This document shows, in pieces, positions 13,900 through 56,831 of a DNA stretch of 64,000 nt; within the stretch, counting starts at the first letter, position 1; each line of letters starts with the position of its first letter. The position numbers and the translations under genes are program-made. A model generated the notes under the pieces. It was not told the DNA's origin, made no database searches, and was given only the letters and a program-made list of their open reading frames with translations. The stretch spans positions 1,364,001-1,428,000 of the forward strand of contig NZ_CP051261.1 of the NCBI RefSeq assembly GCF_014236855.1, given 5' to 3'. The stretch comes from Xanthomonas sp. SI (GTDB taxonomy: Bacteria; Pseudomonadota; Gammaproteobacteria; Xanthomonadales; Xanthomonadaceae).

Positions 13900-14592
13900 A
13901 TGGCGACGGCCGGGACTCGGGACGCTGCCGGGACTCGGGACCCGGGACTCGGGACTCGGAACAGCGAGGTGCCAGGACCTGACGGATCGTCGGCGCAGCC
14001 TGCCGCAGCCGTTAGCCCCGGCCGCGCTGCAGCGCCTTCGAGTCCCGAGTCCCGAGTCCCGAGTCCCGCCAAGGTCCGCATCCTCGGCATCGATCCGGGC
14101 TCGCAGCGCACCGGCGTGGGCATCATCGACATCGACGGCAGCGGCCGCACCACCCATGTCCACCACGCGCCGCTGCTGTTGCTCGGCGAGGGCGACTTCT
14201 CGCAGCGGCTGAAGCGCCTGCTGCACGGGCTGGGCGCGCTGATCGAGGAGTACCAGCCGCAGGAAGTGGCGATCGAGCGGGTGTTCATGGGCAAGAGCGC
14301 CGACGCGGCGCTGAAGCTCGGCCACGCGCGCGGCGCGGCGATCTGCGCGGTGGTGCTGCGCGATCTGCCGGTGCACGAGTACGCGGCCAAGGAGATCAAG
14401 CTGGCCATCGTCGGCAAAGGTGCGGCCGAGAAGCAGCAGGTACAACATATGGTCGGTCTGATGCTGAGTCTGACCGGAAAACTGCAGGCCGACGCCGCCG
14501 ACGCGCTGGCGGTGGCCATCACCCATGCCCACGTGCGCGCCACCGCGCAGCGCCTGGGTGTCAGTACGCAACAGGCTTGGAGCAGGAAATGA
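13900..14592 (+). CDS. ruvC: Holliday junction resolvase RuvC with a repeat-encoded N-terminal extension
   Basis: RuvC cuts four-way junctions delivered by RuvAB during recombinational repair. The core starts at [14 protein letters not shown] and has all four acidic metal ligands: Asp65 (GIDPGS), the Glu in VAIERVFMG, and the two Asp in [10 protein letters not shown]. The core is about 170 residues, as in E. coli. Ahead of it are about 57 extra residues encoded by a GGGACTC heptad hairpin (RDPGLGTRN and SPESRVPSP are the two arms). No ATG lies between 13900 and the core. The only other start I see is a GTG in AGCGAGGTGCCA near 13967, which would still retain the second arm. The ATG at 13900 sits one base after the yebC stop, favouring coupled translation. 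Whether the tail is translated in vivo is unproven. Confidence 0.9.
13911..14069. repeat. Heptad hairpin element 1 (GGGACTC type)
   Basis: The left arm (13911-13960) is made of GGGACTC heptads, interrupted once; the right arm (14039-14068) is the reverse complement (CGAGTCC)n. The loop of about 78 bases between them is unrelated to the other elements. The whole element lies inside the open frame of ruvC, immediately after yebC. Confidence 0.85.
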
Positions 14593-14600
14593 GTGGAGCA

Positions 14601-14696
14601 GGGATTCGGGATTCGGGATTCGGGATTCGTAAGAGCGGGGTGCCTGTGCCTGCGCGCGGCTGTACCCAATCCCCAATCCCGAATCCCCAATCCCGG
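14601..14696. repeat. Heptad hairpin element 2, between ruvC and ruvA
   Basis: Four GGGATTC heptads (14601-14629) pair with CCAATCC/CGAATCC heptads (14665-14695) across a 35-base loop. The element occupies almost all of the ruvC-ruvA gap (14593-14716). Confidence 0.88.
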
Positions 14697-14714
14697 CGCC
14701 TCGCACGAGGCGCC
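14695..14714 (+). promoter_or_regulatory. Small hairpin covering the ruvA ribosome binding site
   Basis: GGCGCCTC (14695-14702) pairs with GAGGCGCC (14707-14714) around a GCAC loop, two bases before the ruvA ATG. The only Shine-Dalgarno candidate, GAGG at 14707-14710, is inside the stem, so folding would hide it. Confidence 0.5.
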
Positions 14715-14716
14715 CA

Positions 14717-15301
14717 ATGATCGGCCGTCTGCGCGGCATCCTCGCCTACAAGCAGCCGCCGTGGCTGGTGATCGACGTGGGCGGGGTCGGCTATGAGCTG
14801 GAGGCGCCGATGAGCACCTTCTACGACCTGCCCGACGTCGGCCGCGACGTGATCCTGTTCACCCACTACGCGCAGAAGGAAGACAGCGTCTCGCTGTACG
14901 GCTTCCTGCGCGAGGGCGAGCGGCGCCTGTTCCGCGACGTGCAGCGGGTCACCGGGATCGGCGCCAAGATCGCGCTGGCGGTGCTGTCCGGGGTCAGCGT
15001 GGACGAGTTCGCGCGCATGGTCACCAGCGCCGACGTCACTGCGCTGACCCGCATTCCCGGCATTGGCAAGAAGACCGCCGAGCGCATGGTGGTGGAACTG
15101 CGCGACCGCGCCGCGGACTTCAGCGGCGGCGCGCCGGTCACCGGGCAGCTCGGCACCGATGCGGTGTCCGAGGCCACCGTGGCGCTGCAGCAGCTCGGTT
15201 ACAAGCCGGCCGAAGCGGCGAAGATGGCGCGCGATGCCGCCGCCGACGGCGACGAGGTCGCCAGCGTGATCCGCAAGGCCTTGCAGGCCGCGTTGCGCTG
15301 A
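14717..15301 (+). CDS. ruvA: Holliday junction DNA helicase subunit RuvA
   Basis: A 194-residue protein, the usual length. RuvA tetramers bind Holliday junctions and load the RuvB motor. Domain I ([27 protein letters not shown]) is the OB fold. Domain II has the two helix-hairpin-helix motifs ([15 protein letters not shown] and [16 protein letters not shown], the latter near residues 113-128). Domain III ([20 protein letters not shown] to the end) contacts RuvB. Its start is preceded by a heptad hairpin and a short stem that contains the GAGG ribosome site. It is separated from ruvB by kup, a split also seen in other Xanthomonadaceae as I recall. Confidence 0.97.
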
Positions 15302-15353
15302 CCGCGCGCCGTACCTCCTTCTTCACGCCTCGCGGCGCTAACCTGATCCCCAC

Positions 15354-17273
15354 ATGTCCACCACTCCCGCTCCGTCCCCCGGCTCCGGCCATTCGGCCGA
15401 TGCCTCGCATGGAAAAGCCGGCTTTGCGCTGATCATCGGCGCCATCGGCGTGGTGTTCGGCGACATCGGCACCAGCCCGCTGTACACGCTCAAGGAAGCG
15501 TTCTCGCCGCACTACGGCCTGAGCAGCGACCACGACACCGTGCTCGGCGTGCTGTCGCTGGCGTTCTGGTCGCTGATGATCGTGGTCACGCTGAAGTACG
15601 TCACCATCATCATGCGCGCCGACAACGAAGGCGAGGGCGGCATCATGGCGCTGATGGCGCTGACCCAGCGCACCATGCGCAAGGGCTCGCGCTCGGCCTA
15701 CGTGGTCGGCATTCTCGGCATCTTCGGCGCCTCGCTGTTCTTCGGCGACGGGGTGATCACCCCGGCGATCTCGGTGCTGGGCGCGGTCGAAGGCCTGGAG
15801 GTGGCCGCGCCGGGGCTGCATGCGTTCATCGTGCCGATCACCGTGGTGGTGCTGGTGATCCTGTTCCTGGGCCAGCGCTTCGGCACCGAGAAGGTCGGCA
15901 AGGTATTCGGCCCGATCACCTGCCTGTGGTTCCTGTCGCTGGCGGCGATCGGCATCTGGAACATCGTCGACGCGCCGGAAGTGCTGAAGGCGTTCAACCC
16001 GTGGTGGGCGATCCGCTTCTTCCTCGACCACGGCTGGCACGGGGTGTGGATCCTCGGCGCGGTGGTGCTGGCGGTGACCGGCGGCGAGGCGCTGTACGCG
16101 GACATGGGCCACTTCGGCGCGCGCCCGATCCGCCACGCCTGGTACTTCTTCGTGCTGCCGTGCCTGGTGCTGAACTACCTGGGGCAGGGCGCGCTGGTGC
16201 TCAAGCATCCGGCGGCGCTGAAGAACCCGTTCTTCGAAGCGGTGCCCGGCTGGGCGCTGTACCCGATGATCGTGCTGGCCACGCTGGCGGCGGTGATCGC
16301 CTCGCAGGCGGTGATCACCGGCGCGTTCTCGATCGCGCGCCAGGCCATGCAGCTGGGCTACATCCCGCGCATGCTGATCAAGCACACCTCGCACGACACC
16401 ATCGGCCAGATCTACATCCCCGGCATCAACTGGCTGCTGATGGTGATGGTGATCGCGCTGGTGCTGATCTTCCGCAGTTCCACCAACCTGGCGGTGGCCT
16501 ACGGCATTTCGGTGTCGGCGACGATGCTGATCGACACCCTGCTGCTGGCGCTGGTGGCGCGCGCGCTGTGGCCGCGCTGGCGCAACTGGGTGTTGCCGCT
16601 GTGCGTGGTGTTCTTCGTCATCGACGCCGCGTTCCTGATCGCCAACGGCGCCAAGCTGCTGCAGGGCGCCTGGTTCCCGGTGGCGCTGGGCATCGTGATG
16701 TTCACCATGATGCGCACCTGGCGCCGCGGCCGCGAGCTGCTGCGCGAGGAGATCCGCAAGGACGGCATCCAGATCGACAGCTTCCTGCCCGGGCTGATGC
16801 TGGCGCCGCCGGTGCGCGTGCCGGGCACCGCGGTGTTCCTGACCGCCGACGCGACCGTGGTGCCGCATGCGCTGATGCACAACCTCAAGCACAACAAGGT
16901 GCTGCACGAGCGCAACGTGTTCCTGACCGTGGAGACCCTGCCGGTGCCGTACGCCTCGGCCAAGCAGCGGCTGAAGATGGACGCCATCGGCGACGAGTTC
17001 TACCGGGTGATCGTGCGCTTCGGCTTCATGGAAACCCCCGACGTGCCGCTGGCGCTGATGCGCTCCTGCGACCAGGGCGGCATCTACTTCGACCCGATGG
17101 ACACCACCTATTTCGCCAGCCGCGAGACCATCGTCGCCAGCGCCAACCGCGGCATGCCGATCTGGCGCGACAAGCTGTTCGCGGTCATGCACCGCAACGC
17201 CGCCCCGGCCACCGGCTTCTTCCGCATCCCCGGCAACCGGCTGGTGGAGCTGGGGGCGCAGGTGGAGATCTGA
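15354..17273 (+). CDS. kup: Low-affinity potassium uptake protein Kup
   Basis: A 639-residue KUP/HAK/KT-type K+:H+ symporter of the inner membrane. The diagnostic first helix is present ([24 protein letters not shown], about residues 25-48). About twelve hydrophobic helices run to around residue 450, including GFFGDG-like [20 protein letters not shown] and [21 protein letters not shown]-terminal cytoplasmic domain with LFVTVE-like [11 protein letters not shown] follows. Length and architecture match E. coli Kup. The gene sits inside the ruv cluster with 52 bases to ruvA and a heptad hairpin before ruvB. Nothing suggests a role in recombination; the position is probably an ancestral insertion. 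Confidence 0.96.
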
Positions 17274-17289
17274 AGCCGCCTGCGGCGGC

Positions 17290-17399
17290 CGGGATTGGGG
17301 ATTGGAGATTCGGGATTGGTCAAGGCCATAGCGCCGAAGCCGTCCTGCAGTCGATACTATTGCGCTACCAATCCCGAATCTCGATTCCCCAATCCCGGC
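17290..17399. repeat. Heptad hairpin element 3, between kup and ruvB
   Basis: The left arm 17291-17319 (GGGATTG heptads with one GGAGATT variant) and the right arm 17368-17398 (CCAATCC, CGAATCT, CGATTCC units) flank a loop of about 48 bases. The right arm ends 6 bases before the ruvB ATG. Confidence 0.87.
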
Positions 17400-17404
17400 T
17401 CTAA

Positions 17405-18439
17405 ATGGACCGCATCATCGCCAGCAGCGCCACCCGCGAAGACGACGCGGTCGAGGCCAGCATCCGTCCCAAGCGGCTGGCCGACTATCTCGGCCAGCAG
17501 CCGGTGCGCGAGCAGCTGTCGATCTACATCGAAGCGGCCAAGGCGCGCGGCGAGGCGATGGACCATGTGCTGATCTTCGGGCCGCCGGGCCTGGGCAAGA
17601 CCACGCTCAGCCATGTCATCGCCAACGAGCTGGGGGTCAATCTGCGCGCGACCTCCGGCCCGGTGATCGAGAAGGCCGGCGACCTGGCGGCGCTGCTGAC
17701 CAACCTGCAGCCGCACGACGTGCTGTTCGTGGACGAGATCCACCGCCTGTCGCCGGTGGTCGAGGAAGTGCTGTATCCGGCGATGGAAGACTTCCAGATC
17801 GACATCATGATCGGCGAGGGTCCGGCCGCGCGCTCGATCAAGATCGACCTGCCGCCGTTCACCCTGATCGGCGCCACCACCCGCGCCGGCCTGCTGACCG
17901 CGCCGCTGCGCGACCGCTTCGGCATCGTGCAGCGCCTGGCGTTCTATACCCCGGAAGAACTGGGCAAGATCGTGCGCCGTTCCGCCGCCATCCTCGGCAT
18001 CGCCTGCGACGCCGACGGCTGCGCGGAGATCGCGCGGCGCGCGCGCGGCACCCCGCGCATCGCCAACCGGCTGCTGCGGCGGGTCCGCGATTTCGCCCAG
18101 GTCCGCGCCGGCGGGCTGATCGACCTGGCCGTCGCGCAGGCGGCGATGCAGATGCTCGGGGTCGACCCGGAAGGCTTCGACGACCTGGATCGGCGCCTGC
18201 TGCGCACCATCATCGACTACTTCGACGGCGGACCGGTCGGGGTCGAGTCGCTGGCCGCCTCGCTGTCGGAAGAACGCGGCACCCTGGAAGACGTGATCGA
18301 GCCCTACCTGATCCAGCAGGGCTACCTGATCCGCACCGCACGCGGGCGCATGGCGACCAACAAGGCGTATCTGCACTTGGGCTTGCCGCCCAAGCGGGAT
18401 TCGGGATTGGGGATTGGGGATTCGGGAGGGCTGTTTTGA
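17405..18439 (+). CDS. ruvB: Holliday junction branch-migration ATPase RuvB
   Basis: A 344-residue AAA+ motor that drives branch migration with RuvA. Walker A is GPPGLGKTT (about residues 59-67) and Walker B is LFVDEIHRL. Sensor-region [18 protein letters not shown], the arginine-finger region and the C-terminal winged-helix domain (ending [21 protein letters not shown]) are all present. After that conserved end, a 12-residue tail ([14 protein letters not shown] region) is encoded by the left arm of a heptad hairpin. The stop codon overlaps the TTG start of ybgC. No Shine-Dalgarno sequence is visible before the ATG because the right arm of another hairpin lies there. Confidence 0.97.
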
Positions 18440-18501
18440 CTGATAGCCGCCAGGACACGCCTTTGCTCGGCGAATCCCGAATCCCGAATCCCGAATCCCG
18501 G
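18396..18501. repeat. Heptad hairpin element 4, shared by ruvB and ybgC coding sequence
   Basis: The left arm 18396-18427 (five GGG tracts) encodes the RuvB tail; the right arm 18472-18501 (CGAATCC heptads) encodes residues 13-22 of YbgC. The loop (about 44 bases) holds the ruvB stop and the ybgC TTG start. Confidence 0.9.
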
Positions 18502-18936
18502 CAGCTATTCAGTTGGCCGACACGCATCTACTGGGAAGATACCGACGCCGGTGGCGTGGTCTACCATGCACGCTACGTCGCCTTTCTGGAGCGGGCGCGC
18601 ACGGAGTGGCTACGCGCGCTGGGCTACGGACAGGAACGCCTGCGCCTGCAGCACGATCTGGTGTTCGCGGTGCGCGCGATGCAGCTCGACTTCCTGCGCC
18701 CGGCCCACCTGGACGATACGCTGCAGGTCGGCGTCGCGCTGACCCAGTGCAAGCGCGCCAGCCTGCTGTTCGCGCAGTCGATCCATCGCGACGGCGAGCT
18801 GCTGTTGCGCGCGCAGGTGAAGGTGGCGGCGCTGGGCGCCGGCAATTTCCGCCCGCGCGGCATGGACGACGCGTTGTACGACATTTTGAAAGCTCTCGAA
18901 ATCACTGAAGCAGCATTACTGAGGAACGACGGATGA
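18436..18936 (+). CDS. ybgC: YbgC acyl-CoA thioesterase of the Tol-Pal cluster
   Basis: A 166-residue hot-dog-fold thioesterase of the 4-hydroxybenzoyl-CoA family, found at the head of tol-pal operons and linked to phospholipid metabolism at the membrane. The core begins [26 protein letters not shown], with the catalytic Asp in EDTDAGG, and ends at the normal position. The first 25 residues are unusual: only TTG codons (18436, 18463) are available, both upstream of a heptad-repeat arm, so [10 protein letters not shown] is part of the protein whichever is used. The TTG at 18436 overlaps the ruvB stop. The stop overlaps the tolQ ATG (ATGA). Confidence 0.92.
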
Positions 18937-19709
18937 TCGCATTGCTCCTGGCCCTGCAGGACACGGTGGCGGAGGCGCTACCGCAGGACGTGACCCAGAC
19001 CGCCGCGCAGGCCGTCGCCAGCACCGCCGCCCATGGCGGCATCAACTACCTGGATCTGCTGATCAAGGCCAGCCTGCCGGTCAAGGTGATCGTGCTGTTG
19101 CTGCTGCTCGGCTCGCTGATCAGCTGGGTGATCATTTTCCGCAAGGCGCGGGTGTTCAAGCAGGCCAACCGCGACGCGGACGACTTCGAGAACCGCTTCT
19201 GGTCCGGCACCGACCTGACCAAGCTCTACGCCGGGGCGGCCGACCGCAACCGCGTGGTCGGCGGACTTGAGGCGATCTTCGAGGCCGGTTTCCGCGAATT
19301 CACCCGCCTGCGCGACAAGCGCAAGCTCGACGCGCGCATCCAGCTGGAAGGCGCGCAGCGGGCGATGCGCGCCACCTATGCGCGCGAAGTGGACCGCCTG
19401 GAGCGCAACCTGGAACTGCTCGCCAACATCGGTTCCACCGCGCCGTACGTCGGCCTGGTCGGCACCGTGTTCGGCATCATGGTGACCATGCACGACATGC
19501 TCAACAGCGGCCAGCAGGCGGGCATCGCCGCGGTCGCGCCGGGCATTTCCGAGGCGCTGTTCGCCACCGCCATCGGCCTGTTCGTGGCGATCCCGGCAGT
19601 GTGGGCGTACAACCGCTTCACTACCCGGGTCGAGCGGATGGCGGTGCGCTTCGAGACCTTCTCCGAAGAGTTCAGCTCCATCCTGCAGCGCCAGGCCAGC
19701 GGCGACTGA
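18933..19709 (+). CDS. tolQ: Tol-Pal inner membrane proton channel subunit TolQ
   Basis: A 258-residue ExbB/MotA-type protein. With TolR it forms the proton channel that energises TolA. The first transmembrane helix lies around residues 47-68 (VKVIVLLLLLGSLISWVIIF), followed by a cytoplasmic loop. Two more helices contain the conserved NIGSTAPYVGLVGTVFGIM and EALFATAIGLFVAIPAVWAYN, including the Thr that lines the channel. The length is slightly above E. coli TolQ because of a periplasmic N-terminus of about 45 residues. The ATG overlaps the ybgC stop by 4 bases. It is the first membrane gene of the operon tolQRA. Confidence 0.97.
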   Translation: MIALLLALQDTVAEALPQDVTQTAAQAVASTAAHGGINYLDLLIKASLPVKVIVLLLLLGSLISWVIIFRKARVFKQANRDADDFENRFWSGTDLTKLYAGAADRNRVVGGLEAIFEAGFREFTRLRDKRKLDARIQLEGAQRAMRATYAREVDRLERNLELLANIGSTAPYVGLVGTVFGIMVTMHDMLNSGQQAGIAAVAPGISEALFATAIGLFVAIPAVWAYNRFTTRVERMAVRFETFSEEFSSILQRQASGD

Positions 19710-19749
19710 GCGCCGCCGCGCGCTCCGCCCACGACCCCAGGATTCCCGC

Positions 19750-20176
<427 letters not shown>

Positions 20177-20187
<11 letters not shown>

Positions 20188-21178
20188 AGCCGATTCCCGA
20201 CCGCCCCGCGAACAGGACAGCGACCAGGGCCTGATCGTCGGCGTGCTCCTCGCGCTGGCCGTGCACGTGCTGCTCGGGCTGCTGTTCTTCCTTGCCTGGT
20301 GGTGGTCGCCGGTGCGCGAGGTGGAGCCGGCGGCCGGGTCGCCGATGGTCGAGGCCTCGCTTGTGGTCTCGGCCGCCGACGTGCGTTCGGCGCAGAAGGC
20401 GGTGCAGGACGCGCCCAAGCCCTTGCCCGAGCCGCTGCCCGAACCGGTCAAGGACGTCGCCGAGGACGACACCGTGCCGCCGCCGCAACCGGTGCCCGTG
20501 CCCAAGCCGCAGCAGGCGCCGACCGAGCAGCAGCAGAAAGCGCAGGACTTCATCCCGGTGCCGGACAAGGTCGACCAGGACCGCGCCAGCCGCACCGCGA
20601 TCTCGCAGGAAAAGGAGAAGCAGGAGCAGGAAGCCAAGCGCCGCCAGGAGCAGATCGACCTGACCGAGCAGAAGCGCCAGCAGGAGGCCGAGCAGAAGCA
20701 GCGCCTGGCCGCGCAGCAGGAAGAGGAGCGGCAGAAGAAGATCGCCGACATCCGCAAGCAGCGCGAGCAGGCCGACCGCGAAGCCAAGCTGGCCGAGCAG
20801 AAGCTGCGCCAGCTGGCCGACGTGCGCGCCAAGCAGGCCTCGGCCACCGCCGCGTCCACGCCGCAGGCCGCGCCCGGTCAGAACGGGACCAATACCGATC
20901 TGTCGGCCAAGTACGCCGCGGCGATCCAGCAGGCCGTGCTGAGCCAGTGGGTGCGCCCGGATTCGGTGCCGCTGGGGCAGAAGTGCAAGATCGCGATCAA
21001 GCAGATCGTCGGCGGGCAGGTGATCGAGGCCAAGGTCAGCCCCGACTGTCCCTACGACGAAGCGGGCCGACGCTCGATCGAGGCCGCGGTGCTGCGAGCG
21101 CAGCCGCTGCCGTACCGGGGCTTCGAATCGGTGTTCGCGCGCGACCTGACCTTCAACTTCACTGCGCAGGATCGCTGA
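20177..21178 (+). CDS. tolA: Tol-Pal periplasm-spanning protein TolA
   Basis: A 333-residue protein that links TolQR in the inner membrane to TolB and Pal at the outer membrane. A hydrophilic start is followed by one transmembrane helix (about residues 16-38, with the family SHLH-like histidine in ALAVHVLLG). A Pro-rich stretch leads to a long charged coiled coil of Glu/Gln/Lys/Arg/Ala (about 125-225). The globular C-terminal TolA domain starts near SAKYAAAIQQAVLSQWVRP and contains two cysteines (GQKCKIAI and SPDCPYDEA). The length is shorter than in E. coli, mainly in the helical stalk. The start overlaps tolR. Confidence 0.95.
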
Positions 21179-21183
21179 GAAGC

Positions 21184-21216
21184 CGGGATTAGGGATTCGG
21201 GATTGGGGATTCGGGA
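21184..21216 (+). repeat. Heptad half-element 5 (left arm only) after tolA
   Basis: Five GGGATTN units lie 6 bases after the tolA stop; no CCAATCC arm follows before tolB. It could be a truncated element. The remaining sequence to 21414 must carry any tolB promoter; GATAAT at 21303-21308 is a -10 candidate. Confidence 0.8.
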
Positions 21217-21414
21217 TGCGTACGCCCCCTGTCCCGGGTCCAAAAAGCCCGCGTCCGGGCCTGGCGAGGCCCGGGAACTCCCCGGGCGGCGGTGCGATAG
21301 GCGATAATCCGCGCTTCCTGCCATCGGCTTCACATCTCGATGGTTCATGATTGCGAATACGTTCACCCGCGCATTGCTATCTCTTGCGCCTTCCCGAGTA
21401 CCGCTGAGCGACCC

Positions 21415-22734
21415 ATGAAGAAACTGCCGCGCTGGCTTGCCGTCCTGACTGCCCTGTTGCTCCCCTTGGCCGCGTCCGCGCAGGACAAGGGCCTGGAAAT
21501 CGACATCGTCGGCGGCAACGCGTCGGCGACCCCGATCACCGTCGTGCCGATGCCCTACCAGGGTTCGGCCGCCGCACCGTCCACCGACGTGTCCGCGGTG
21601 GTCCGCGCCGACCTGGACCGTTCCGGCCAGTTCCGCAACCTGCCCGAGGCGCAGATCGTCGAGCGCCCGACCCGCGGCAGCGAAGTGCAGTACGCCACCT
21701 GGCGCGCGCTGAAGCAGGATTACCTGGTCGCCGGCCGGGTGATGGATGCCGGCGAGGGCACCTACCGGGTCGAGTACGAACTGTTCAACGTGGCCAAGGG
21801 CGAGCGCATGCTCGGCCTGGCGATGACCGCGCGCGCCAGCGCGATGCGCGACGTGGCGCACCAGATGGCCGATGCGATCTACGAGAAGATCACCGGCGTG
21901 CGCGGCGCGTTCTGGACCCGCATCGCCTACGTCACCGCCAGCGGCAAGGGCGGCGCCATGCGCTATGCGCTGATGGTCGCCGACTCCGACGGCTACAACC
22001 CGCAGACCATCGTGCGCTCGGCCGAACCGCTGCTGTCGCCGAACTGGAGCCCGGACGGCAAGAAGCTGGCCTACGTGAGCTTCGAGCGCGGCAACTCCTC
22101 GATCTACCTGCAGGACATCTCCACCGGCGCCCGCCAGTTGGTGTCCAGCTTCCGTGGCATCAACGGCGCGCCCTCGTTCTCGCCGGACGGCCGCAAGCTG
22201 GCCCTGGCGCTGTCGCGCAGCGGCAACCCGGAGATCTACGTGATGGACCTGGGCAGCAAGCAGCTGACCCAGCTGACCAACCACTTCGGCATCGACACCG
22301 AGCCGACCTGGGCGCCGGACGGCAGCAGCATCTACTTCACCTCCGATCGCGGCGGCCGGCCGCAGATCTACCAGGTAGCGGCGACCGGCGGCAGCGCCAA
22401 CCGCGTGACCTTCCAGGGCAACTACAACGCCACCGCCAGCGTGTCCTTCGACGGCAACAAGATCGCCGTCGCCCAGGGCAGCGGCAACACCTACAAGATC
22501 GCGATGATGGACCGCAGCCTGGGTTCGCCGCGCTGGAGCACATTGTCTACGGGGTCGCTGGACGAATCGCCGAGCTTCGCCCCGAACGCCAGCATGGTCC
22601 TGTACGCCGCCCGCGAAGGCGGGCGAGGGGTGCTTTACGCGGTCTCGGCCGATGCCCGCGTGCGCCAGCGCCTGGTCCTGGCCGACGGCGATGTGCGCGA
22701 GCCGTCGTGGTCGCCGTATCGGACTGCGCGTTGA
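21415..22734 (+). CDS. tolB: Tol-Pal periplasmic protein TolB
   Basis: A 439-residue periplasmic beta-propeller that binds Pal and TolA. The ATG at 21415 gives a signal peptide (MKKLPRWLAVLTALLLPLAASAQ) cleaved near residue 22; the frame is open further upstream but without a signal. The N-terminal domain (to about 165) precedes the six-bladed WD-like propeller, seen as repeats of SPNWSPDGKKLAYVS, PSFSPDGRKLALALS, PTWAPDGSSIYFTSDRGG and similar. The protein ends EPSWSPYRTAR, as expected. About 236 bases, including a heptad half-element, separate it from tolA, so it may have its own promoter. Confidence 0.97.
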   Translation: MKKLPRWLAVLTALLLPLAASAQDKGLEIDIVGGNASATPITVVPMPYQGSAAAPSTDVSAVVRADLDRSGQFRNLPEAQIVERPTRGSEVQYATWRALKQDYLVAGRVMDAGEGTYRVEYELFNVAKGERMLGLAMTARASAMRDVAHQMADAIYEKITGVRGAFWTRIAYVTASGKGGAMRYALMVADSDGYNPQTIVRSAEPLLSPNWSPDGKKLAYVSFERGNSSIYLQDISTGARQLVSSFRGINGAPSFSPDGRKLALALSRSGNPEIYVMDLGSKQLTQLTNHFGIDTEPTWAPDGSSIYFTSDRGGRPQIYQVAATGGSANRVTFQGNYNATASVSFDGNKIAVAQGSGNTYKIAMMDRSLGSPRWSTLSTGSLDESPSFAPNASMVLYAAREGGRGVLYAVSADARVRQRLVLADGDVREPSWSPYRTAR

Positions 22735-22759
22735 CACGTAAGTTTGATGTTAATATTTC
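22731..22759 (+). promoter_or_regulatory. Probable promoter of pal-cpoB
   Basis: A perfect -35 TTGACA (22731-22736) overlaps the tolB stop. A -10 of TATTTC (22754-22759) is 17 bases away; TAATAT at 22751-22756 is closer to consensus but only 14 bases away. The AT-rich stretch stands out in this GC-rich DNA, and pal is usually strongly expressed. Confidence 0.6.
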
Positions 22760-22805
22760 GCTGCGTTGAACCCCCTTTCGGCTCAGGAGCCATATAGGTA
22801 TCCCC

Positions 22806-23324
22806 ATGAACAAGACCACCCGCGTACTGCTTGTTTCGCTGTTGTCCGTTGCAGCTCTGGCCGGCTGCTCCAAGAAGGTCAAGGAAGTTCCCCAGACCGA
22901 CACCACCGGCACCACCGGTTCCACCACCCCGACCGGCCCGTCGACCTCCGGCCTGTACGGCCCGGGCGATCTGGATACCGATGCTTGCCTGCGCCAGCGC
23001 GTGGTCTACTTCGATCTGGACCAGGACTCGCTGAAGCCGGAGTTCCAGGCGATCATGGCCTGCCACGCGAAGTACCTGCGTGACCGTCCGTCCTCGCGCA
23101 TCACCCTGCAGGGCAATGCCGACGAGCGCGGTTCGCGCGAGTACAACATGGGCCTGGGCGAGCGTCGTGGCAACGCCGTGTCTTCGGCGCTGCAGGCTGC
23201 CGGCGGTTCGGCTGCGCAGCTGACCGTGGTCAGCTACGGCGAAGAGCGTCCGGTGTGCACCGAGTCGGGCGAGTCCTGCTGGTCGCAGAACCGCCGCGTC
23301 GAGATCGTGTACACGGCTCAGTAA
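22806..23324 (+). CDS. pal: Peptidoglycan-associated lipoprotein Pal
   Basis: A 172-residue outer-membrane lipoprotein that anchors the Tol system to peptidoglycan. Residues 1-20 are a lipoprotein signal ending LAGC, with Cys21 lipidated and a Lys-rich start to the mature part. A Thr/Pro/Gly linker follows. The OmpA-like domain begins VVYFDLDQDSLKPEFQ and has the peptidoglycan-binding segment TLQGNADERGSREYNMGLGERR. It ends NRRVEIVYTAQ. It sits 71 bases after tolB behind a probable promoter and 3 bases before cpoB. Confidence 0.98.
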   Translation: MNKTTRVLLVSLLSVAALAGCSKKVKEVPQTDTTGTTGSTTPTGPSTSGLYGPGDLDTDACLRQRVVYFDLDQDSLKPEFQAIMACHAKYLRDRPSSRITLQGNADERGSREYNMGLGERRGNAVSSALQAAGGSAAQLTVVSYGEERPVCTESGESCWSQNRRVEIVYTAQ

Positions 23325-23327
23325 TAG

Positions 23328-24140
23328 ATGCGTATCGGTGTCCTCACATCGATGATCGTCGCGGCGGCCCTGGTGGCCGCCGCGCCGGCTCATGCGCAGC
23401 GCGCAAGTCTTGCCGATCGCGTCTCCGCGCTCGAGCAGCAGGCAATGAACACCCAGGGCAACACCGACATGCTGAACCAGCTCAACCAGCTGCGGACGCA
23501 GGTGCAGTCGCTGGAAGCCACGATCGAGCAGTTGCAGCACGATAACGAACAACTCAAGCAGCGCGCCAAGGACCAGTACCTGGACCTGGACGGTCGCCTG
23601 AACCGGATCGAGGGTGGCGCGACGCCGCCGTTGCCGCCGGCTGGGGCTGCCGCACCCGCCGCTTCCGCACCCGCTGCCAAGCCGGCTGCCGCCGTTTCCG
23701 AACGGCCGCCGTCGGTGCATGGCGACGCCGGCACGCTCGCCGCCAGCGGCGACGAGCGCACCAGCTACAACGTCGCCTTCGATGCGCTGAAGGCCGGCAA
23801 GTACGCCGACTCGGCGAATCTGTTCCAGAGCTTTCTCGAGCTGTACCCGAACGGCGTCTACGCCCCCAATGCCTTGTACTGGCTGGGCGAGAGTTATTAC
23901 GCCACCAAGAATTTCCCGCTGGCCGAGGCGCAGTTCCGCGACCTGATCGGCCGCTACCCGACCCACGACAAGGCCTCCGGCGCCCTGCTCAAGCTGGGCC
24001 TGTCCCAGTACGGCGAAGGCCGCGCCCAGGATGCCGAGCAGACCCTGCAGCAGGTGATCAGCCAGTATCCGGGATCGGATGCCGCGCGCACCGCGCAGGA
24101 CCGCCTGCAGTCGATCCGCATCGGCCAGCAGTTGCGCTGA
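23328..24140 (+). CDS. cpoB: Cell division coordinator CpoB (YbgF)
   Basis: A 270-residue periplasmic protein that coordinates PBP1b activity with Tol-driven outer-membrane constriction in E. coli. A signal peptide (cleavage near HAQR, about residue 24) precedes an N-terminal coiled coil (LADRVSALEQQ to LNRIEGG) that trimerises the protein. A Pro/Ala linker and C-terminal TPR repeats follow (SYNVAFDALKAGKYADSANL, PNALYWLGESYYATKNFPLA, SGALLKLGLSQYGEGRAQDA). It starts 3 bases after pal, the conserved end of the Tol-Pal operon. Its E. coli partner PBP1b is encoded elsewhere in this window (mrcB). Confidence 0.94.
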   Translation: MRIGVLTSMIVAAALVAAAPAHAQRASLADRVSALEQQAMNTQGNTDMLNQLNQLRTQVQSLEATIEQLQHDNEQLKQRAKDQYLDLDGRLNRIEGGATPPLPPAGAAAPAASAPAAKPAAAVSERPPSVHGDAGTLAASGDERTSYNVAFDALKAGKYADSANLFQSFLELYPNGVYAPNALYWLGESYYATKNFPLAEAQFRDLIGRYPTHDKASGALLKLGLSQYGEGRAQDAEQTLQQVISQYPGSDAARTAQDRLQSIRIGQQLR

Positions 24141-24186
24141 GCCCCCGAACGCTGCCGCCATCGTCGCGGGGGCATACTTTCCCGCC

Positions 24187-24864
24187 ATGGCCGCCGTTCC
24201 CAGCGATATCGTACAAAGCCCGCTGCCGCGCCTGAAGCTGACGGAGATCTTCCTGTCGCTGCAGGGCGAGGCCGAGAGCGCCGGCTGGCCGACCGTGTTC
24301 GTGCGCCTGACCGGCTGCCCGCTGCGCTGCAGTTATTGCGACACGGCCTACGCCTTCCACGGCGGGCAGTGGTGGGACATCGACGCGATCCTGGCCGAAG
24401 TGGCGCGCCATGGCGTGCGCCATGTTTGCGTGACCGGCGGCGAGCCGCTGGCGCAGAAGCGCTGCCTGCGCCTGCTCGAGCAACTGTGCGACGCCGGCTA
24501 CGACGTATCGTTGGAAACATCCGGCGCGCTGGACATCGCCGAAGTGGACCCGCGCGTATCGCGGGTGCTCGACATCAAGACCCCGGCCTCGCAGGAAGCG
24601 CATCGCAACCGCTGGGAGAACCTGCCGCTGCTGACCGCCCACGACCAGATCAAGTTCGTGCTGTGCGGCCGCGCCGACTACGACTGGGCGCGCGCGATCG
24701 TCGCCGAACACCGCCTGCACGAACGCTGCACCGTGTGGTTCTCGCCGAGCAAGAGCGAACTGGCGCCGCGCGACCTGGCCGACTGGATCGTCGCCGACCG
24801 CCTGCCGGTGCGCTTCCAGATGCAGCTGCACAAGCTGCTGTGGAACGACGAGCCGGGCCGGTAA
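24187..24864 (+). CDS. queE: 7-carboxy-7-deazaguanine synthase QueE
   Basis: A 225-residue radical-SAM enzyme that converts 6-carboxytetrahydropterin to 7-carboxy-7-deazaguanine in the queuosine pathway. The substrate-binding start [27 protein letters not shown] leads into the cluster motif [14 protein letters not shown], a CX3CX2C that binds the 4Fe-4[11 protein letters not shown] provides the SAM-binding GGE. The ATG at 24187 precedes the conserved region by about 15 residues. It lies between cpoB and queC, the common tol-pal-queE-queC arrangement of this group. QueC, the next enzyme, is 115 bases downstream behind a heptad hairpin. Confidence 0.96.
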
Positions 24865-24870
24865 GAAGCC

Positions 24871-24972
24871 GGGATTGGGCATTCGGGATTGGGGATTCGC
24901 AGAAGCCCTCGCCGACGTCCGATCGCGTGCTGTAGCTTTTGCAAATCCCCAATCTCCAATCCCAAATCCCGG
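24871..24972. repeat. Heptad hairpin element 6, between queE and queC
   Basis: The left arm 24871-24899 (four GGG tracts) and the right arm 24943-24971 flank a 43-base loop starting AGAAGC. The element begins 7 bases after the queE stop and ends about 7 bases before the queC ATG. Confidence 0.88.
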
Positions 24973-24979
24973 CCCTCCA

Positions 24980-25645
24980 ATGAAAAACGCCGTCGTCCTA
25001 CTCTCAGGTGGCATGGATTCCGCCGTCGTCGTCGCCATCGCCCGCGAGCAGGGCTATGCCGTGCATGCGCTGAGCGTCAGCTATGGGCAGCGGCATACCT
25101 CCGAACTGGACGCGGCCACGCGCGTGGCCGCCGCGCTCGGTGCGGTGGCGCACAAGACCGTCAACGTCGACCTGCGCAGCATCGGCGGCTCCGCGTTGAC
25201 CGACGACATCGATGTGCCGGACGCGGGCGGCGAGGGCATCCCGATCACCTACGTGCCGGCGCGCAACACCATCATGCTGTCGGTGGCGCTGGGCTGGGCC
25301 GAGGTGCTGGGCGCGGCGGACATCTTCTGCGGCGTCAACGCGGTGGACTATTCCGGTTACCCCGACTGCCGTCCCGAGTTCATCGACGCGTTCCAGACCC
25401 TGGCCAACCTGGCGACCAAGGCCGGCGTGGAAGGTGCCGGGCTGCGCGTGCACGCGCCGCTGCAGCGCATGAGCAAGGCCGACATCGTGCGCGAAGGCGA
25501 ACGCCTGGGCGTGGATTTCGGCCTCACCGTGTCCTGCTACCGCGCCGATGCCGACGGCCGCGCCTGCGGCCACTGCGACGCCTGCCGCCTGCGCGCCGCC
25601 GGCTTCGCCGATGCCGGCGTGGCCGACCCGACCCGCTACGCCTGA
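24980..25645 (+). CDS. queC: 7-cyano-7-deazaguanine synthase QueC
   Basis: A 221-residue PP-loop ATPase that makes preQ0 from 7-carboxy-7-deazaguanine, ammonia and ATP. The start [17 protein letters not shown] contains the SGGxDS loop. The core follows with [11 protein letters not shown] and the [17 protein letters not shown] segment. Near the C-terminus the zinc site [20 protein letters not shown] gives the four cysteines. Length is normal. The ATG at 24980 follows the right arm of a heptad hairpin by only a few bases, with no Shine-Dalgarno sequence. It precedes the tRNA-Lys gene, though queuosine itself modifies Asp, Asn, His and Tyr tRNAs. Confidence 0.97.
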
Positions 25646-25669
25646 TTTCGCGTTGACGCGGGGCTGGGG

Positions 25670-25699
25670 TAGAATACGCACCCCGGCGCAAGGCCGGGG
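25670..25699 (+). promoter_or_regulatory. tRNA-Lys leader: -10-like TAGAAT and a leader hairpin
   Basis: TAGAAT (25670-25675) could be a -10 element. It is followed by CCCCGGC/GCCGGGG (25681-25699) with a GCAAG loop, nine bases before the mature tRNA. No well-spaced -35 was found. Confidence 0.35.
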
Positions 25700-25708
25700 C
25701 ATTGTTTT

Positions 25709-25784
25709 GGGCCGTTAGCTCAGTCGGTAGAGCAGAAGACTTTTAATCTTTTGGTCGATGGTTCGAATCCATCACGGCCCACCA
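25709..25784 (+). tRNA. tRNA-Lys (anticodon UUU)
   Basis: The 76-base sequence folds as a complete cloverleaf: acceptor stem GGGCCGU with ACGGCCC, D arm GCTC/GAGC, and anticodon loop CTTTTAA with anticodon TTT. The T arm is GATGG/CCATC with TTCGAAT, and the encoded end is ACCA, so the CCA tail is genomic. It follows queC on the same strand. The next 250 bases to argP (25785-26037) show no gene I can support. Confidence 0.97.
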
Positions 25785-26037
25785 ATTCGATCAGCGATTC
25801 AAGCATCGTCTTCGCTGGTTTCGCCACAGCCTCCTGAATCACGCCTGAGAACGCTCGCAGTGAACGGGAACGCGGAACTTTGGTTGCCGCAGTGAGTGCG
25901 GCGCCGTGATACGTCGAATGAATCCGCAGGCAGCTTTCGTAGTCGAAGCTTCTTTGCCGTGAACCTGGGTGCCTGACCGCAAGTCACTGTGCGAAGTGCT
26001 TCGGTCGCGACAAGCGCAGCAACTGAGCACGCTCGGT

Positions 26038-39148: not shown

Positions 39149-39399
39149 GACTCGGGACTCGGGACTCGGGACTCGGGACGACAGGATGATGTTCCTGCGC
39201 AAATCGCTGTCAAGCGATTTGATGAAAAAAGTGCCGCTTTCTTTGAAGAAAAAGCGACTTTTCTAGCTGTGGATCATTCGCTTTTCTGTAGGAGCGGCTT
39301 CAGCCGCGACGCGTTATCGGTAAAGCGTCGCGGCTGAAGCCGCTCCTACAGAAAAGCAAACATGCGGCGCACTTGCGAAAATCCCGAGTCCCGAGTCTC
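39149..39399. repeat. Heptad element 8 (GGGACTC type) flanking a GTAG palindrome
   Basis: The left arm (39149-39179, four GGGACTC heptads) begins one base after the hrpA stop. A right arm of CGAGTCC heptads is at 39380-39399, just before the clc stop. About 200 bases between them include the GTAG palindrome at 39281-39356. No gene is seen in 39149-39402. Confidence 0.75.
39281..39356. repeat. GTAG-type REP palindrome, head to head
   Basis: A perfect 32-base inverted repeat (39281-39312 and 39325-39356) with a 12-base loop. Each arm contains TGTAGGAGCGGCTTCAGCCG, a unit that is itself a small hairpin (GCGGCT/AGCCGC). It belongs to the GTAG REP class known from Stenotrophomonas and Xanthomonas. 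Confidence 0.88.
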
Positions 39400-39402
39400 C
39401 GA

Positions 39403-41184: not shown

Positions 41185-41194
41185 GGCATGCGCC

Positions 41195-45067: not shown

Positions 45068-45322
45068 GGGCGTTCCTCTTCGGGTGGGATCACAGGGCGA
45101 CGACGACGACATCGGTTTCAGCGGAGCGCGGCGTCGGTTTCGAGAATAGGCTTGCCCCTTACGGGTGGTGTGAAATTTCCGGTAAGGCCGGCCAAGTCGC
45201 AAGCCGGTCACAATGAGCTTCCGGTGCGTATGCGGTCGCGGCGGTCCGCGCGGCGCGCAATTGTGGCCAGGCGCGCAAGCGCGCTAGTGTAGGCAGCACC
45301 GCTTCGTCACGACCATCCGTCC

Positions 45323-47479: not shown

Positions 47480-47503
47480 CCCGGGCCGCGCGCTGCGTGC
47501 GCA

Positions 47504-47522
47504 TGCATGGTCTTGCCATGCA
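47504..47522. terminator. Possible weak relA terminator hairpin
   Basis: TGCATGG (47504-47510) and CCATGCA (47516-47522) pair around TCTTG, 25 bases after the relA stop and 20 before the next start. No T-run follows. Confidence 0.3.
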
Positions 47523-47541
47523 CGCACGCTAAGCTTGCGCG

Positions 47542-51515: not shown

Positions 51516-51608
51516 CCGTTGCAACTCCAGCTTAAACAAATGGGACCCCGCGCCGCGCTGCCTGCTGGCCTGCGCTAGACTCGCCGGAATTTACATTCTC
51601 GCATCCCC

Positions 51609-54053: not shown

Positions 54054-54060
54054 TCCACGG

Positions 54061-54594: not shown

Positions 54595-54602
54595 TTGAGA
54601 GC

Positions 54603-54753
54603 TGGGATTGGGGATTGGGGATTCGGGATTGGTAGAAGCGACGGCGGTTCGGTTGTTTGTGGCAGGCAGATATCGCCACTTCGGTGGGCGCACTAAATAG
54701 CGAAACCGACGTGCCGCTCTAACGAATCCCCAATCCCGAATCCCCAATCCCGG
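54603..54753. repeat. Heptad hairpin element 9, before yoaA
   Basis: The left arm 54603-54632 (GGGATTG, GGGATTC units) and the right arm 54723-54751 enclose an 89-base loop that begins TAGAAGCG. The right arm ends about 7 bases before the yoaA ATG. Confidence 0.88.
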
Positions 54754-54759
54754 CCCCCA

Positions 54760-56760
54760 ATGTCCCTCAGCCATGCCAGCACCGAAGCGCTCAGCGAAGG
54801 CGGTGCGCTCGCCCGCCAGCTGGATGCGTTCGTGCCGCGTGCGGCGCAGCTGCGGCTGACCGCGGCGATCGCCGAGGCGTTCGAGCAGCGCGATGTGCTG
54901 CTCGCCGAGGCCGGCACCGGCACCGGCAAGACCTATGCGTACCTGGTGCCGGCGCTGCTGTCGGGGCTGAAGACCATCGTCTCCACCGGCACCCGCGCGC
55001 TGCAGGACCAGCTCTACCACCGCGATCTGCCGCGGGTGCGCGCGGCGCTGGGCGTGGGCTTGAACAGTGCGTTGCTGAAGGGCCGCGCCAACTATCTGTG
55101 CAAGTACCGGCTGGAGCAGGCCAAGGGCGAGCCGCGCTTCACCTCGCGCGAGCAGATCGCGCAGTTCCAGCGCATCGTCGCCTGGGGCGGGCGCACTCGC
55201 TTCGGCGACATCGCCGAGCTGGAGGCGCTGCCCGACGATTCGCCGCTGCTGCCGATGGTCACTTCGACCATGGACAACTGCCTGGGCACCGAATGCCCGT
55301 TCTGGGGCGAGTGCTTCGTGGTGCAGGCGCGGCAGCGCGCGCAGGCCGCCGACGTGGTGGTGGTCAACCATCACCTGCTGCTGGCCGACCTGGCGCTGAA
55401 GCAGGAAGGCTTCGGCGAGATTCTGCCCGGCGCGCAGGTCTTCGTCATCGACGAGGCGCATCAATTGCCGGAACTGGCGGCGAACTTCTTCGGCGAAAGC
55501 TTCGGCATGCGCCCGCTGCAGGAGCTGGCGCGCGACTGCCTGGCCGAGAGCCGCCACGTCGCCGGCGCGCTGGCCAGCCTGCAGGCGCCGGTGCAGGCGC
55601 TGGAGCAGGCCTTGCGCGAACTGCGCGCGGCGATGGAAGGCTTGCCCACCCGCGGCACGCAATGGCGGCTGCTGGCCAAGCCGCAGGTGCGCGACGGTTT
55701 CGATGCGCTGCTGGCGGAACTGGCGCGGCTGCAGGAGAGCCTGGCGGCGCTGCGCGAGGCCTCGCCTGGTTTCGACGCCTGCGCTGCGCGTGCGCAGGAG
55801 ATGCGCGCGCGCCTGGGCCATTGGCTCGGCGACGACGCGCCGATCGCCGATTTCGACGCCGAGCCGGAACCGCCGTCCAACGATGTGCTGTGGTACGAAC
55901 TCAGCGCGCGCGGCTTCCGCTGCCAGCGCACGCCGCTGGACGTGTCCGGCCCGTTGCGCCTGCATCGCGAGAAGTCGCACGCGGCGTGGGTGTTCACCTC
56001 GGCGACGCTGGCGGTGAAGGGCGATTTCGAGCACATCGCCACCCGCCTGGGCCTGAGCGATCCGATGACCCTGCTGCAGCCCAGCCCGTTCGATTGGGCG
56101 CGGCAGGCGCTGTGCTATCTGCCGGCGCTGCCGGATCCGAACGCGCGCGGTTTCGGCACCGCCTTGATCGCCGCGCTGCATCCGGTGCTGCAGGCCTCGC
56201 AGGGCCGCGCCTTCCTGCTGTTCGCCTCGCACCGCGCCTTGCGCGAAGCCGCCGAGGCATTGCGCGACGGGCCATGGCCGCTGTTCGTGCAGGGCGAGGC
56301 GCCGCGCGCGAGCCTGCTGCAGCGTTTTCGCGAGTCCGGCAACGGCGTGCTGCTCGGCTCGGCCAGCTTCCGCGAAGGCGTGGACGTGGTCGGCGATGCG
56401 CTGAGCGTGGTGGTGATCGACAAGCTGCCGTTCGCCGCGCCGGACGATCCGGTGTTCGAGGCGCGGCTGGACGCGATCCGCCGCGACGGCGGCAACCCGT
56501 TCCGCGACGAACAGCTGCCGCAGGCGGTGATCGCGCTGAAGCAGGGCGTGGGCCGGCTGATCCGCAGCGAGACCGACCGCGGCGTGCTGGTGCTGTGCGA
56601 TCCGCGCCTGCTGTCCAAATCCTACGGCCGCACTTTCCTGGAATCGCTGCCGCCGTTCGCGCGCACCCGCGATGTCGAGGACGTGCGCCAGTTCTTCGGC
56701 GCCGGCGCCGCGGCGCCGGTGGATAATCACGAACACGTCGCGTCGCCGCCGTTCGACTAG
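54760..56760 (+). CDS. yoaA: DinG/XPD-like DNA helicase YoaA
   Basis: A 666-residue superfamily 2 helicase of the iron-sulfur DinG/YoaA group, involved in replication-fork repair and damage tolerance (E. coli YoaA works with the chi subunit of polymerase III). Walker A is AEAGTGTGKTYAYL (about residues 50-63). The 4Fe-4S site has Cys in NYLCKYR, DNCLGTECPFWGEC. The DEAH box is FVIDEAHQLPE. Motifs V and VI appear in GSASFREGVDVVGD and QGVGRLIRSETDRG. The length fits YoaA and is shorter than DinG. No Shine-Dalgarno sequence is visible because the ATG directly follows a heptad arm. Confidence 0.92.
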   Translation: MSLSHASTEALSEGGALARQLDAFVPRAAQLRLTAAIAEAFEQRDVLLAEAGTGTGKTYAYLVPALLSGLKTIVSTGTRALQDQLYHRDLPRVRAALGVGLNSALLKGRANYLCKYRLEQAKGEPRFTSREQIAQFQRIVAWGGRTRFGDIAELEALPDDSPLLPMVTSTMDNCLGTECPFWGECFVVQARQRAQAADVVVVNHHLLLADLALKQEGFGEILPGAQVFVIDEAHQLPELAANFFGESFGMRPLQELARDCLAESRHVAGALASLQAPVQALEQALRELRAAMEGLPTRGTQWRLLAKPQVRDGFDALLAELARLQESLAALREASPGFDACAARAQEMRARLGHWLGDDAPIADFDAEPEPPSNDVLWYELSARGFRCQRTPLDVSGPLRLHREKSHAAWVFTSATLAVKGDFEHIATRLGLSDPMTLLQPSPFDWARQALCYLPALPDPNARGFGTALIAALHPVLQASQGRAFLLFASHRALREAAEALRDGPWPLFVQGEAPRASLLQRFRESGNGVLLGSASFREGVDVVGDALSVVVIDKLPFAAPDDPVFEARLDAIRRDGGNPFRDEQLPQAVIALKQGVGRLIRSETDRGVLVLCDPRLLSKSYGRTFLESLPPFARTRDVEDVRQFFGAGAAAPVDNHEHVASPPFD

Positions 56761-56801
56761 CCAGCGCACGGCATCCGCTTTTTCGCCCTCGCTTCGCTTT
56801 T

Positions 56802-56831
56802 CGAATCCCCAATCCCGAATCCCCAATCCCG
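56802..56831. repeat. Heptad half-element 10 (right arm only) before tsaB
   Basis: Four CCAATCC/CGAATCC units are preceded by a loop-like TTTTTCGCCCTC stretch but no GGGATT arm, which would have to lie inside yoaA. It ends 7 bases before the tsaB ATG. Confidence 0.8.

Follow-up and report, generated by a model that had tools for sequence, protein, structure and literature searches.

We analyzed a 64,000-nucleotide stretch of the genome of Xanthomonas sp. SI (contig NZ_CP051261.1, positions 1,364,001 to 1,428,000; here called the window), in which G-rich heptad repeats such as GGGATTS are arranged as inverted pairs separated by a loop. The reading that we prefer, to which we give a probability of about 0.42, is that such a pair encodes a stem-loop of the mRNA next to a stop codon, kept for its shape while its arms are renewed from a pool of similar arms in the genome. 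The sequences show that a stem-loop of great stability can be formed by the arms and that the hairpin can persist at a junction while the heptad differs between species in both arms. G-rich arms on the coding strand abut stop codons far above chance, and the structure has been lost in two genomes of the X. albilineans type. The elements belong with the G-rich heptad repeats of Xanthomonas, whose discovery is that of Rehm et al. in 2015 (PMC4692102), so the suspicion raised in the initial annotation, that this is a miniature family common to Xanthomonas, was right. The repeats occur by the hundreds in many genomes of the Xanthomonas family, and the 2015 description, as far as it was available, assigned them no function.

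In the window, a search for GGGATTSGGGATTS with up to two mismatches gave 52 matches, against a mean of 0.85 in 100 shuffled sequences, and a heptad profile called 18 arms, against 0, 0, 0, 0, and 1 in five Markov sequences. These arms, about 30 bp each and mostly made of four heptads of GGGATTS or GGGACTC, form eight convergent pairs (13929 to 14068, 14601 to 14695, 17290 to 17397, 18395 to 18500, 24870 to 24971, 35754 to 35861, 39149 to 39404, and 54604 to 54752) and two single arms (a left arm at 21184 to 21217 and a right arm at 56802 to 56831). The profile search thus recovered the ten elements or half-elements of period 7 that had initially been annotated. The loops measured 35 to 90 bp, and 201 bp in the element at 39149, in line with the first estimates, and the G-rich arm came first in all eight pairs, as had also been noted. 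Seven of the pairs were folded as RNA, the 39149 pair being left out. Their z scores ranged from −5.4 to −8.8, with 0 of 200 shuffled sequences as stable, and the arms thus pair far better than shuffled sequence does.

The window is part of a single-contig genome of 5.25 Mb (the own genome). The family is not confined to the 43 kb over which it had first been noticed, since 224 + 226 exact 14-mers were found genome-wide, and 0 + 0 with a reversed control. The anatomy of the arms was examined in 464 kb of this genome, namely, the window and 400 kb chosen for heptad density. A GGGANNS profile called 86 arms there and none in a Markov null. Neighboring arms less than 400 bp apart were convergent ("+-") in 36 cases and "--" in 1, with no "++" or "-+" case. 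After trimming, for which a unit needed at least three of four matches to GGGA and a base other than G at position 6, exactly four units remained in 72 of the 86 arms. The arm consensus was GCC-(GGGATTS)4-GCAAAAGCG, with an outer GCC and the inward tail GYARRAGCG. Named by their majority dinucleotide, 64 of the 86 arms were of the TT type, 11 of the CT type, and 8 of the AT type. Within TT-type units, positions 1, 4, and 6 were nearly invariant (252, 253, and 252 of 253), partly by construction of the trimming rule, and 234 of the 253 had C or G at position 7, tending weakly to the order G, C, G, C. The loops, compared all against all, were unrelated across loci. A few shared 12 to 20 nt, and inserts of about 65 bp resembling repetitive extragenic palindromes (REPs), with GTAGGAG, were common to three loops, that of the long element at 39149 among them. 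A REP-like inverted pair (GTAGGAGCGGCTTCAGCC...) lies nested in the loop of this long element, at 39281 to 39356.

Rehm et al. (PMC4692102) counted 186 and 183 repeats in two Xanthomonas genomes. In the part of that paper available, the repeats are GGGAATC (GGGNATC) heptads with a preference for four units, mostly intergenic, with 70 and 75 convergent pairs; they lie near stop codons on the coding strand, ruvA is among the loci, and 83% of the contexts are common to both species. The same part reports formation of G-quadruplexes (G4s) in vitro, by circular dichroism (CD), in related oligonucleotides, gives no function, treats the Nostoc GGGGA(C/T)T repeats alongside those of Xanthomonas, and names cyanobacterial short tandem repeats. 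Our elements share with these repeats the tandem GGGANTN heptads, usually in four units, the convergent pairs, the proximity to stop codons, and the ruvA locus. Unlike repeats found by the search rule used there, which required at least one GGGAATC unit, they are dominated by GGGATTS and GGGACTC. Beyond what the available part of that paper describes are joint changes of the heptad in the two arms of a junction element, the presence of heptads of other types at these sites, the lack of matching at the seventh base, the swapping of cassettes, and an insertion in hrpA. No other paper on these repeats was recognized among the matches listed in our literature searches, and the joint turnover of two arms together with an unmatched seventh base, which we regard as the new part, was not met among those matches, some of them available in part. 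In Beggiatoaceae, TAACTGA heptanucleotide repeats (169 direct sets versus one indirect repeat, according to the accessible portion of PMC4679880) resemble our elements, as do the cyanobacterial repeats, in being numerous intergenic heptad arrays with no known function; unlike our inverted pairs, the TAACTGA repeats are direct and of another sequence.

The arms were tightly placed with respect to stop codons. Taking together 181 arms from four genera, 67 lay with their G-rich strand on the coding strand and started −10 to +12 nt from a stop codon, and 0 of 181 did so in the C-rich sense. By genome, the fraction was 37/86 in the own genome, 13/31 in G022, 11/49 in G018, and 6/15 in G084, against 2.0 to 4.4% under random intergenic placement (4.4% for the own genome). 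The regions of G018 and G084 were likewise chosen for heptad density, the stretch of G022 was the start of its contig, and the genes were called for these counts and those of the flanks by a simple codon-usage script, not taken from an annotation. Single arms followed a coding-strand stop codon in 10 of 14 cases, at 10 nt or less in eight of these. The genes flanking 36 elements were oriented ++ in 16 cases, -- in 12, convergently in 6, and divergently in 2 (136, 140, 59, and 60 for all neighbors), and in 14 of 31 flanks, the other arm ended 0 to 15 nt ahead of a start codon. Such placement by stop codons suggests a link to mRNA ends or to the termination of translation. The elements had been annotated as intergenic. 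This is mostly so; the exceptions in the window are the element at 35754, inside hrpA, that at 13929, in the ruvC frame, and the left arm at 18395, which overlaps the end of ruvB.

We then compared orthologous junctions in 80 named loci and the window (81 sequences, 1.64 Mb in total); counts over the named loci are not independent because they represent one syntenic region of related species. Period-7 hairpins, identified without regard to their sequence, numbered 57 in the 81 sequences, versus 0 or 1 for each of the periods 5, 6, and 8 to 12, and the G-rich arm came first in 55 of the 57. Samples of three other genera gave 8, 14, and 4 period-7 hairpins versus 0 or 1 for other periods, with 10, 17, and 4 "+-" neighbors and 1, 3, and 0 "++" neighbors. 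A fourth sample (G138), with regions taken around Y1 transposase matches, held one arm and no period-7 hairpin.

Besides Xanthomonas, junction elements were present in some Pseudoxanthomonas and Luteimonas and, except at kup-ruvB, in Stenotrophomonas MMGLT7. They were absent from most Stenotrophomonas, in which the ruvC-ruvA gap measured 13 to 16 bp versus 124 to 166 bp in Xanthomonas. Presence and absence were called with a narrower arm profile, which favors GGGATTS and misses some GGGACCS arms. By this profile, many other Xanthomonas had only the right arm at ruvB-ybgC, ruvA-kup had one weak arm call (L079), tolA-tolB had a left arm in three sequences, and tolQ-tolR, tolB-pal, and cpoB-queE had no arm in any of the 81 sequences. 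A wider profile, still requiring GGGA-type units and so leaving out other heptads and elements with an undetected arm, scored 78 two-armed elements (28 at ruvC-ruvA, 21 at yebC-ruvC, 14 at kup-ruvB, 9 at ruvB-ybgC, and 6 at queE-queC); several Xanthomonas with a kup-ruvB gap of more than 1 kb were left unscored at that junction. Depending on the species, the same junction carried GGGATTS, GGGAATC, GGGACTC, or GGGACCS, and heptads outside the GGGA type were found at shared junctions as well, namely, GGTGATT at ruvB-ybgC of Luteimonas (L088) and GAGGAGT at kup-ruvB of L073. Identical elements at all orthologous positions in distant genera, which the initial annotation had named as evidence against its view, were thus not found; some positions are shared, and the sequences are not identical. 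The L073 sequence, from Pseudoxanthomonas composti, shows period-7 hairpins of GAACGAG units (515 to 612) and of the GAGGAGT units at kup-ruvB.

The two arms of an element changed type together. Left and right types agreed in 74 of the 78 junction elements, a level that partner shuffles within a junction reached 0 or 1 time in 1,000 at four junctions. On a quick tree built from three proteins (RuvB, TolQ, and TolB), in which Xanthomonas bonasiae FX4 is the nearest row to the window, the minimum numbers of type changes for left and right arms were 10 and 11 at ruvC-ruvA and 7 and 7, 5 and 5, and 5 and 6 at the other three junctions (27 to 29 in total), any change of the majority dinucleotide being counted, rare labels such as CG and GT included. 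In the own genome, the type was concordant in 30 of 36 pairs, and positions 5 and 6 had a concordance score between arms of 238 versus 195.6 after shuffling (0/2,000). Spacer RNAs with other heptads can stay strongly folded (for example, in L073, z of −8.5 for GGGACCG at ruvC-ruvA and −12.0 for GAGGAGT at kup-ruvB). In X. albilineans and a close relative (L010 and L012), the spacer length was kept and z ranged from −1.4 to +1.6 at four junctions, so that folding beyond chance was gone.

Several alleles illustrate how the elements turn over. Across Xanthomonas, the ruvC-ruvA junction has three, with GGGAATC (gap of 124 bp), GGGATTS (163 bp), and GGGACCS (136 to 160 bp), and they are scattered; a tree built from the 600 flanking bases requires 7 changes. 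The flanks were only slightly more similar within than between alleles (identity of 0.935 versus 0.923 for ruvC and 0.943 versus 0.935 for ruvA). In X. arboricola NL_P126 (L016), both flanks are 97 to 99% identical to those of rows of X. euroxanthea and X. arboricola that carry the 124-bp allele, and the 163-bp allele lies between them, with a hybrid left arm. Elements are exchanged as cassettes and are gained and lost, even inside hrpA. A single arm can also be replaced alone, because in L014 a GGGATTG right arm faces a CC-like left arm while the sister L013 has GGGACCC in both arms; the L014 element folds weakly (z of −0.5 versus −9.7 in L013). A recombination footprint is hinted at by the hybrid arms of L016, L019, L044, and L056, but the general test of inner against outer units (below) was negative. 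Thirty of 31 arms in G022 are of the TT type and 15 of 15 in G084 are of the CT type; G018 is mixed. In 48 close orthologous comparisons, not independent of one another, the rate of change per site was 0.022 for positions 1 to 4 and 6, against 0.169 for position 5, 0.156 for position 7, and 0.12 for the loops; A-T exchanges made up 28 of 68 changes at position 5 versus 1 of 245 in the loops, and C-G exchanges made up 35 of 63 at position 7 versus 41 of 245.

Under the preferred reading, the working form would be RNA. The stem-loop would begin a few bases past the upstream stop codon, often ending a few bases ahead of the next start codon, and would serve as an intercistronic 3′-end structure that protects the upstream mRNA from 3′ exonucleases and dampens run-on or initiation downstream. 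Arms would be renewed one by one from the genomic pool, by ectopic conversion or some dispersal process as yet unknown, and selection for pairing would then favor the matching type in the partner arm, with the seventh base perhaps left free because one mismatch in seven is tolerated. REPs and bacterial interspersed mosaic elements (BIMEs) are also placed near stop codons, where they may act as intercistronic 3′-end structures, for example, as a shield against 3′ exonucleases. Stop-proximal REPs reportedly affect translation as well, a report that did not turn up in our literature searches. RNase R and PNPase act on REP-containing mRNAs, according to the available parts of the sources.

A number of results weigh against this reading. 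Position 7 was not concordant between arms in the own genome (82 versus 79.8 shuffled, 654/2,000), and partner shuffles gave no partner-specific match within TT-type elements. Compensation at the level of the base pair is therefore not supported; the arms share a type, not each base pair, because positions 5 and 6 are concordant and position 7 is not. Concordance in G018 was 9/17 against 6.5 expected, "++" neighbors occur (three in G018 and one in G022), and the 74/78 agreement omits elements with an undetected arm, such as the half-converted one in L014. Two two-armed elements fold weakly (z of −1.3 for L036 ruvB-ybgC and −2.2 for L051 yebC-ruvC), and the ruvB-ybgC spacers of five Xanthomonas without a full pair (L015, L033, L051, L057, and L062) have z values of −0.6 to +1.2; by the narrower profile, four of the five have the right arm only and L033 has no arm. 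Inner units were not newer than outer ones in a general test (10 versus 12). A 3′-end role is inapplicable to the elements inside hrpA and the ruvC frame, and the conservation of the G tracts and the four-unit mode would fit a G4 equally well.

A more novel reading, which we regard as doubtful, is that these hairpins form a class that keeps its shape throughout the Xanthomonas family: period-7, purine-first stem-loops at fixed gene ends would outlast any heptad, and four-unit arms would be rewritten from a genome-wide pool by an undescribed enzyme or guided process, genomes drifting to their own dominant heptad. If arms are in fact copied from such a pool, the underlying process would be of interest well beyond these repeats.

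Rather unlikely, in our view, is that the arms are G4 arrays, each arm of four G tracts folding alone as DNA or RNA and the inverted pair being secondary. Four units are a clear mode, the GGG is highly constrained, the freedom of C or G at position 7 would be irrelevant to a G4, and G4 was detected by CD in the related oligonucleotides of Rehm et al. (PMC4692102, available in part). However, the constraint on A4 and T6, for which a G4 has no use, is as strong as that on the Gs (partly through the trimming rule), 72 of the 86 own-genome arms stand in convergent pairs, and the L088 ruvB-ybgC (GGTGATT) and L073 kup-ruvB (GAGGAGT) elements form a hairpin without repeated GGG. Since paired, half-converted, decayed, and empty alleles occur naturally at one junction, models based on structure, G4, or sequence recognition are separable.

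It is improbable that the elements are a local mutational product without function, with slippage making the arrays and template switching copying one arm to the other. The complement swaps described above (A-T at position 5 and C-G at position 7) are overrepresented, although the 48 comparisons behind them are not independent; arms are mostly homogeneous within an element, and long pure heptad arrays occur in other genera. Copying, however, would match position 7 too, which is unmatched, and slippage would scatter the number of units, which is mostly four. That a single type prevails in some genomes calls for a process acting across loci, and the adjacency to stop codons would be unexplained.

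The initial annotation had considered the elements possibly mobile and proposed a search for a shared transposase. A nonautonomous element, similar to REP doublets forming hairpins (REPINs) or miniature inverted-repeat transposable elements (MITEs) and moved by a Y1 transposase (the REP-associated tyrosine transposase, RAYT) or another transposase, is in our judgment quite improbable. In its favor are the presence or absence of elements and their replacement at fixed sites and the resemblance of the arm tail GYARRAGCG to GTAGGAGCG, the start of Xanthomonas REPs. Y1 genes were also more common in heptad-rich genomes (40/44 versus 94/154 others, P = 1e−4; counts transcribed by hand), but among genomes of at least 4 Mb the association was 30/32 versus 24/31 (P = 0.08). 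Y1 genes were undetected in 4 of the 44 heptad-rich genomes, G020 with 816 heptad matches having no Y1 match, and no heptad hairpin was found in the 7.5 to 9 kb fetched around each of five Y1 genes (the own genome has two Y1 matches, one of them among the five). RAYT as the maker is not supported, despite the significant raw association, and no link to a transposase was found. A mobile element with a shared body was rejected, since the own-genome loops share only the REP-like pieces and the 12- to 20-nt matches; this is unlike MITEs, whose copies share internal sequence. The 72-nt loop of one allele was not dispersed: only a 27-nt piece was matched, in 2 of 20 genus-group genomes (the own genome included), among which there may be few kin of the source. 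No target duplication was seen by eye at filled and empty ruvC-ruvA, kup-ruvB, and hrpA sites, and the hrpA linker looked replaced rather than split. Classical transposition is not supported. REPs with RAYTs, in the available part of PMC2817692, are short, mostly intergenic repeats present by the hundreds, with a GT(A/G)G head and an internal palindrome; our elements resemble REPs and BIMEs in number, size, and location and differ from REPs and REPINs with RAYTs, as far as that source goes, in having heptad-array arms without such a head or palindrome and in not flanking any of the five Y1 loci.

Least likely of all is a role in translational coupling, in which the base of the hairpin would bring a stop and a start codon close to each other and so maintain coupling over an enlarged spacer. 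In its favor, the left arm starts 2 to 7 nt past a stop codon and the right arm ends 6 to 15 nt ahead of a start codon in 8 of 31 flanks, and a Shine-Dalgarno 4-mer is scarce at near starts (2/16 versus 105/306 background starts). Such cases are sparse, however, and the scarcity of Shine-Dalgarno motifs is weak; of 31 downstream starts, 16 lie at a distance of more than 20 nt, and 6 of 36 elements lie between convergent genes.

A search of family genomes for the heptads, which had been suggested together with the first description, showed a wide spread. GGGANNS triplets were present in 132 of 198 genomes of the Xanthomonas family, with at least 30 in 64 genomes, and period-7 hairpins were found in the three other genera sampled, as noted above. 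Elsewhere in the class, triplets were found in 13 of the 182 genomes from other families, with at most 11 matches each. In one genome from another family of the class (G351), the reversed control pattern matched 163 times in the forward and 175 times in the reverse direction; its G-rich heptads of other makeup are possibly a parallel family outside the Xanthomonas family.

Window positions 13167 to 25784 hold yebC-ruvC-ruvA-kup-ruvB-ybgC-tolQRAB-pal-cpoB-queE-queC-tRNA-Lys, and left arms lie on the + strand and right arms on the − strand throughout. The first element has a left arm of the GGGACTC type (four units, 13929 to 13959, with a partial extra array from near 13912) inside the open ruvC frame and a (GGGACTC)4 right arm at 14039 to 14068. 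The ruvC frame (13888 to 14592) is open across the whole yebC-ruvC hairpin; candidate start codons lie 102, 171, and 183 nt ahead of where RuvC conservation begins. RuvC of the window probably carries a hairpin-encoded N-terminal extension of 34 to 61 residues, because the open frame has no start codon near the conserved RuvC start. The situation is similar in L009, L011, L013, and L014. In these four and in the window, the closest start codons in frame lie 51 to 171 nt upstream of the conserved start, so that at least the right arm of this hairpin is probably translated in all five.

In the second element, the left arm, (GGGATTC)4, at 14601 to 14629, lies 8 nt past the ruvC stop codon (14592), and the right arm, GGGATTS ×4, at 14665 to 14695, about 22 nt ahead of the ruvA ATG. 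At kup-ruvB, the left arm (17290 to 17319) lies 16 nt past the kup stop codon (17273), and the right arm (17368 to 17397), about 8 nt ahead of the ruvB ATG, is the only one among the eight window pairs with a GGGAATC unit, the rest being mainly GGGATTS or GGGACTC. At ruvB-ybgC, the left arm (18395 to 18427) encodes the final RuvB residues, the stop codon (18437 to 18439) is in the loop, and the right arm is at 18471 to 18500; the same layout, with GGTGATT units, is found in Luteimonas L088. The single G-rich arm at 21184 to 21217 (+) closely follows the tolA stop codon (21178). The left arm at 24870 to 24899 closely follows that of queE (24864), and its partner at 24942 to 24971 ends about 9 nt ahead of the queC ATG.

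Farther downstream, hrpA contains both arms of one element in frame (35754 to 35783 and 35832 to 35861), giving about 41 residues between aligned blocks versus about 10 in the solved HrpA (9ggr). Among eight other genomes searched (hrpA loci L204 to L211), four had an hrpA hairpin (G134, G058, G153, and, from another genus, G001), of differing lengths and always in frame, and four had a plain linker (G006, G186, G170, and G022). The left arm of the long-loop element, of the GGGACTC type (39149 to 39178), starts at the first base after the hrpA stop codon (39148), and its right arm is at 39380 to 39404. The left arm at 54604 to 54632 lies upstream of a YoaA-type helicase gene, with its right arm (54723 to 54752) about 8 nt ahead of an ATG at 54760, and the single arm at 56802 to 56831 (−), C rich on the coding strand, precedes the tsaB ATG at 56839.

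An Rfam scan matched the tRNA alone. No T run of an intrinsic terminator was seen by eye after the right arms of the window elements, and terminator scans of 13500 to 25800 and 35000 to 39600 listed no heptad hairpin, the tool permitting loops of only 3 to 8. A promoter in the loop was considered from a −10-like box seen by eye at kup-ruvB and rejected, a sigma-70 scan of 13500 to 25800 giving 0 promoters. The potassium transporter gene kup sits between ruvA and ruvB, and the gene order from yebC to tRNA-Lys is kept in many of the 80 loci.

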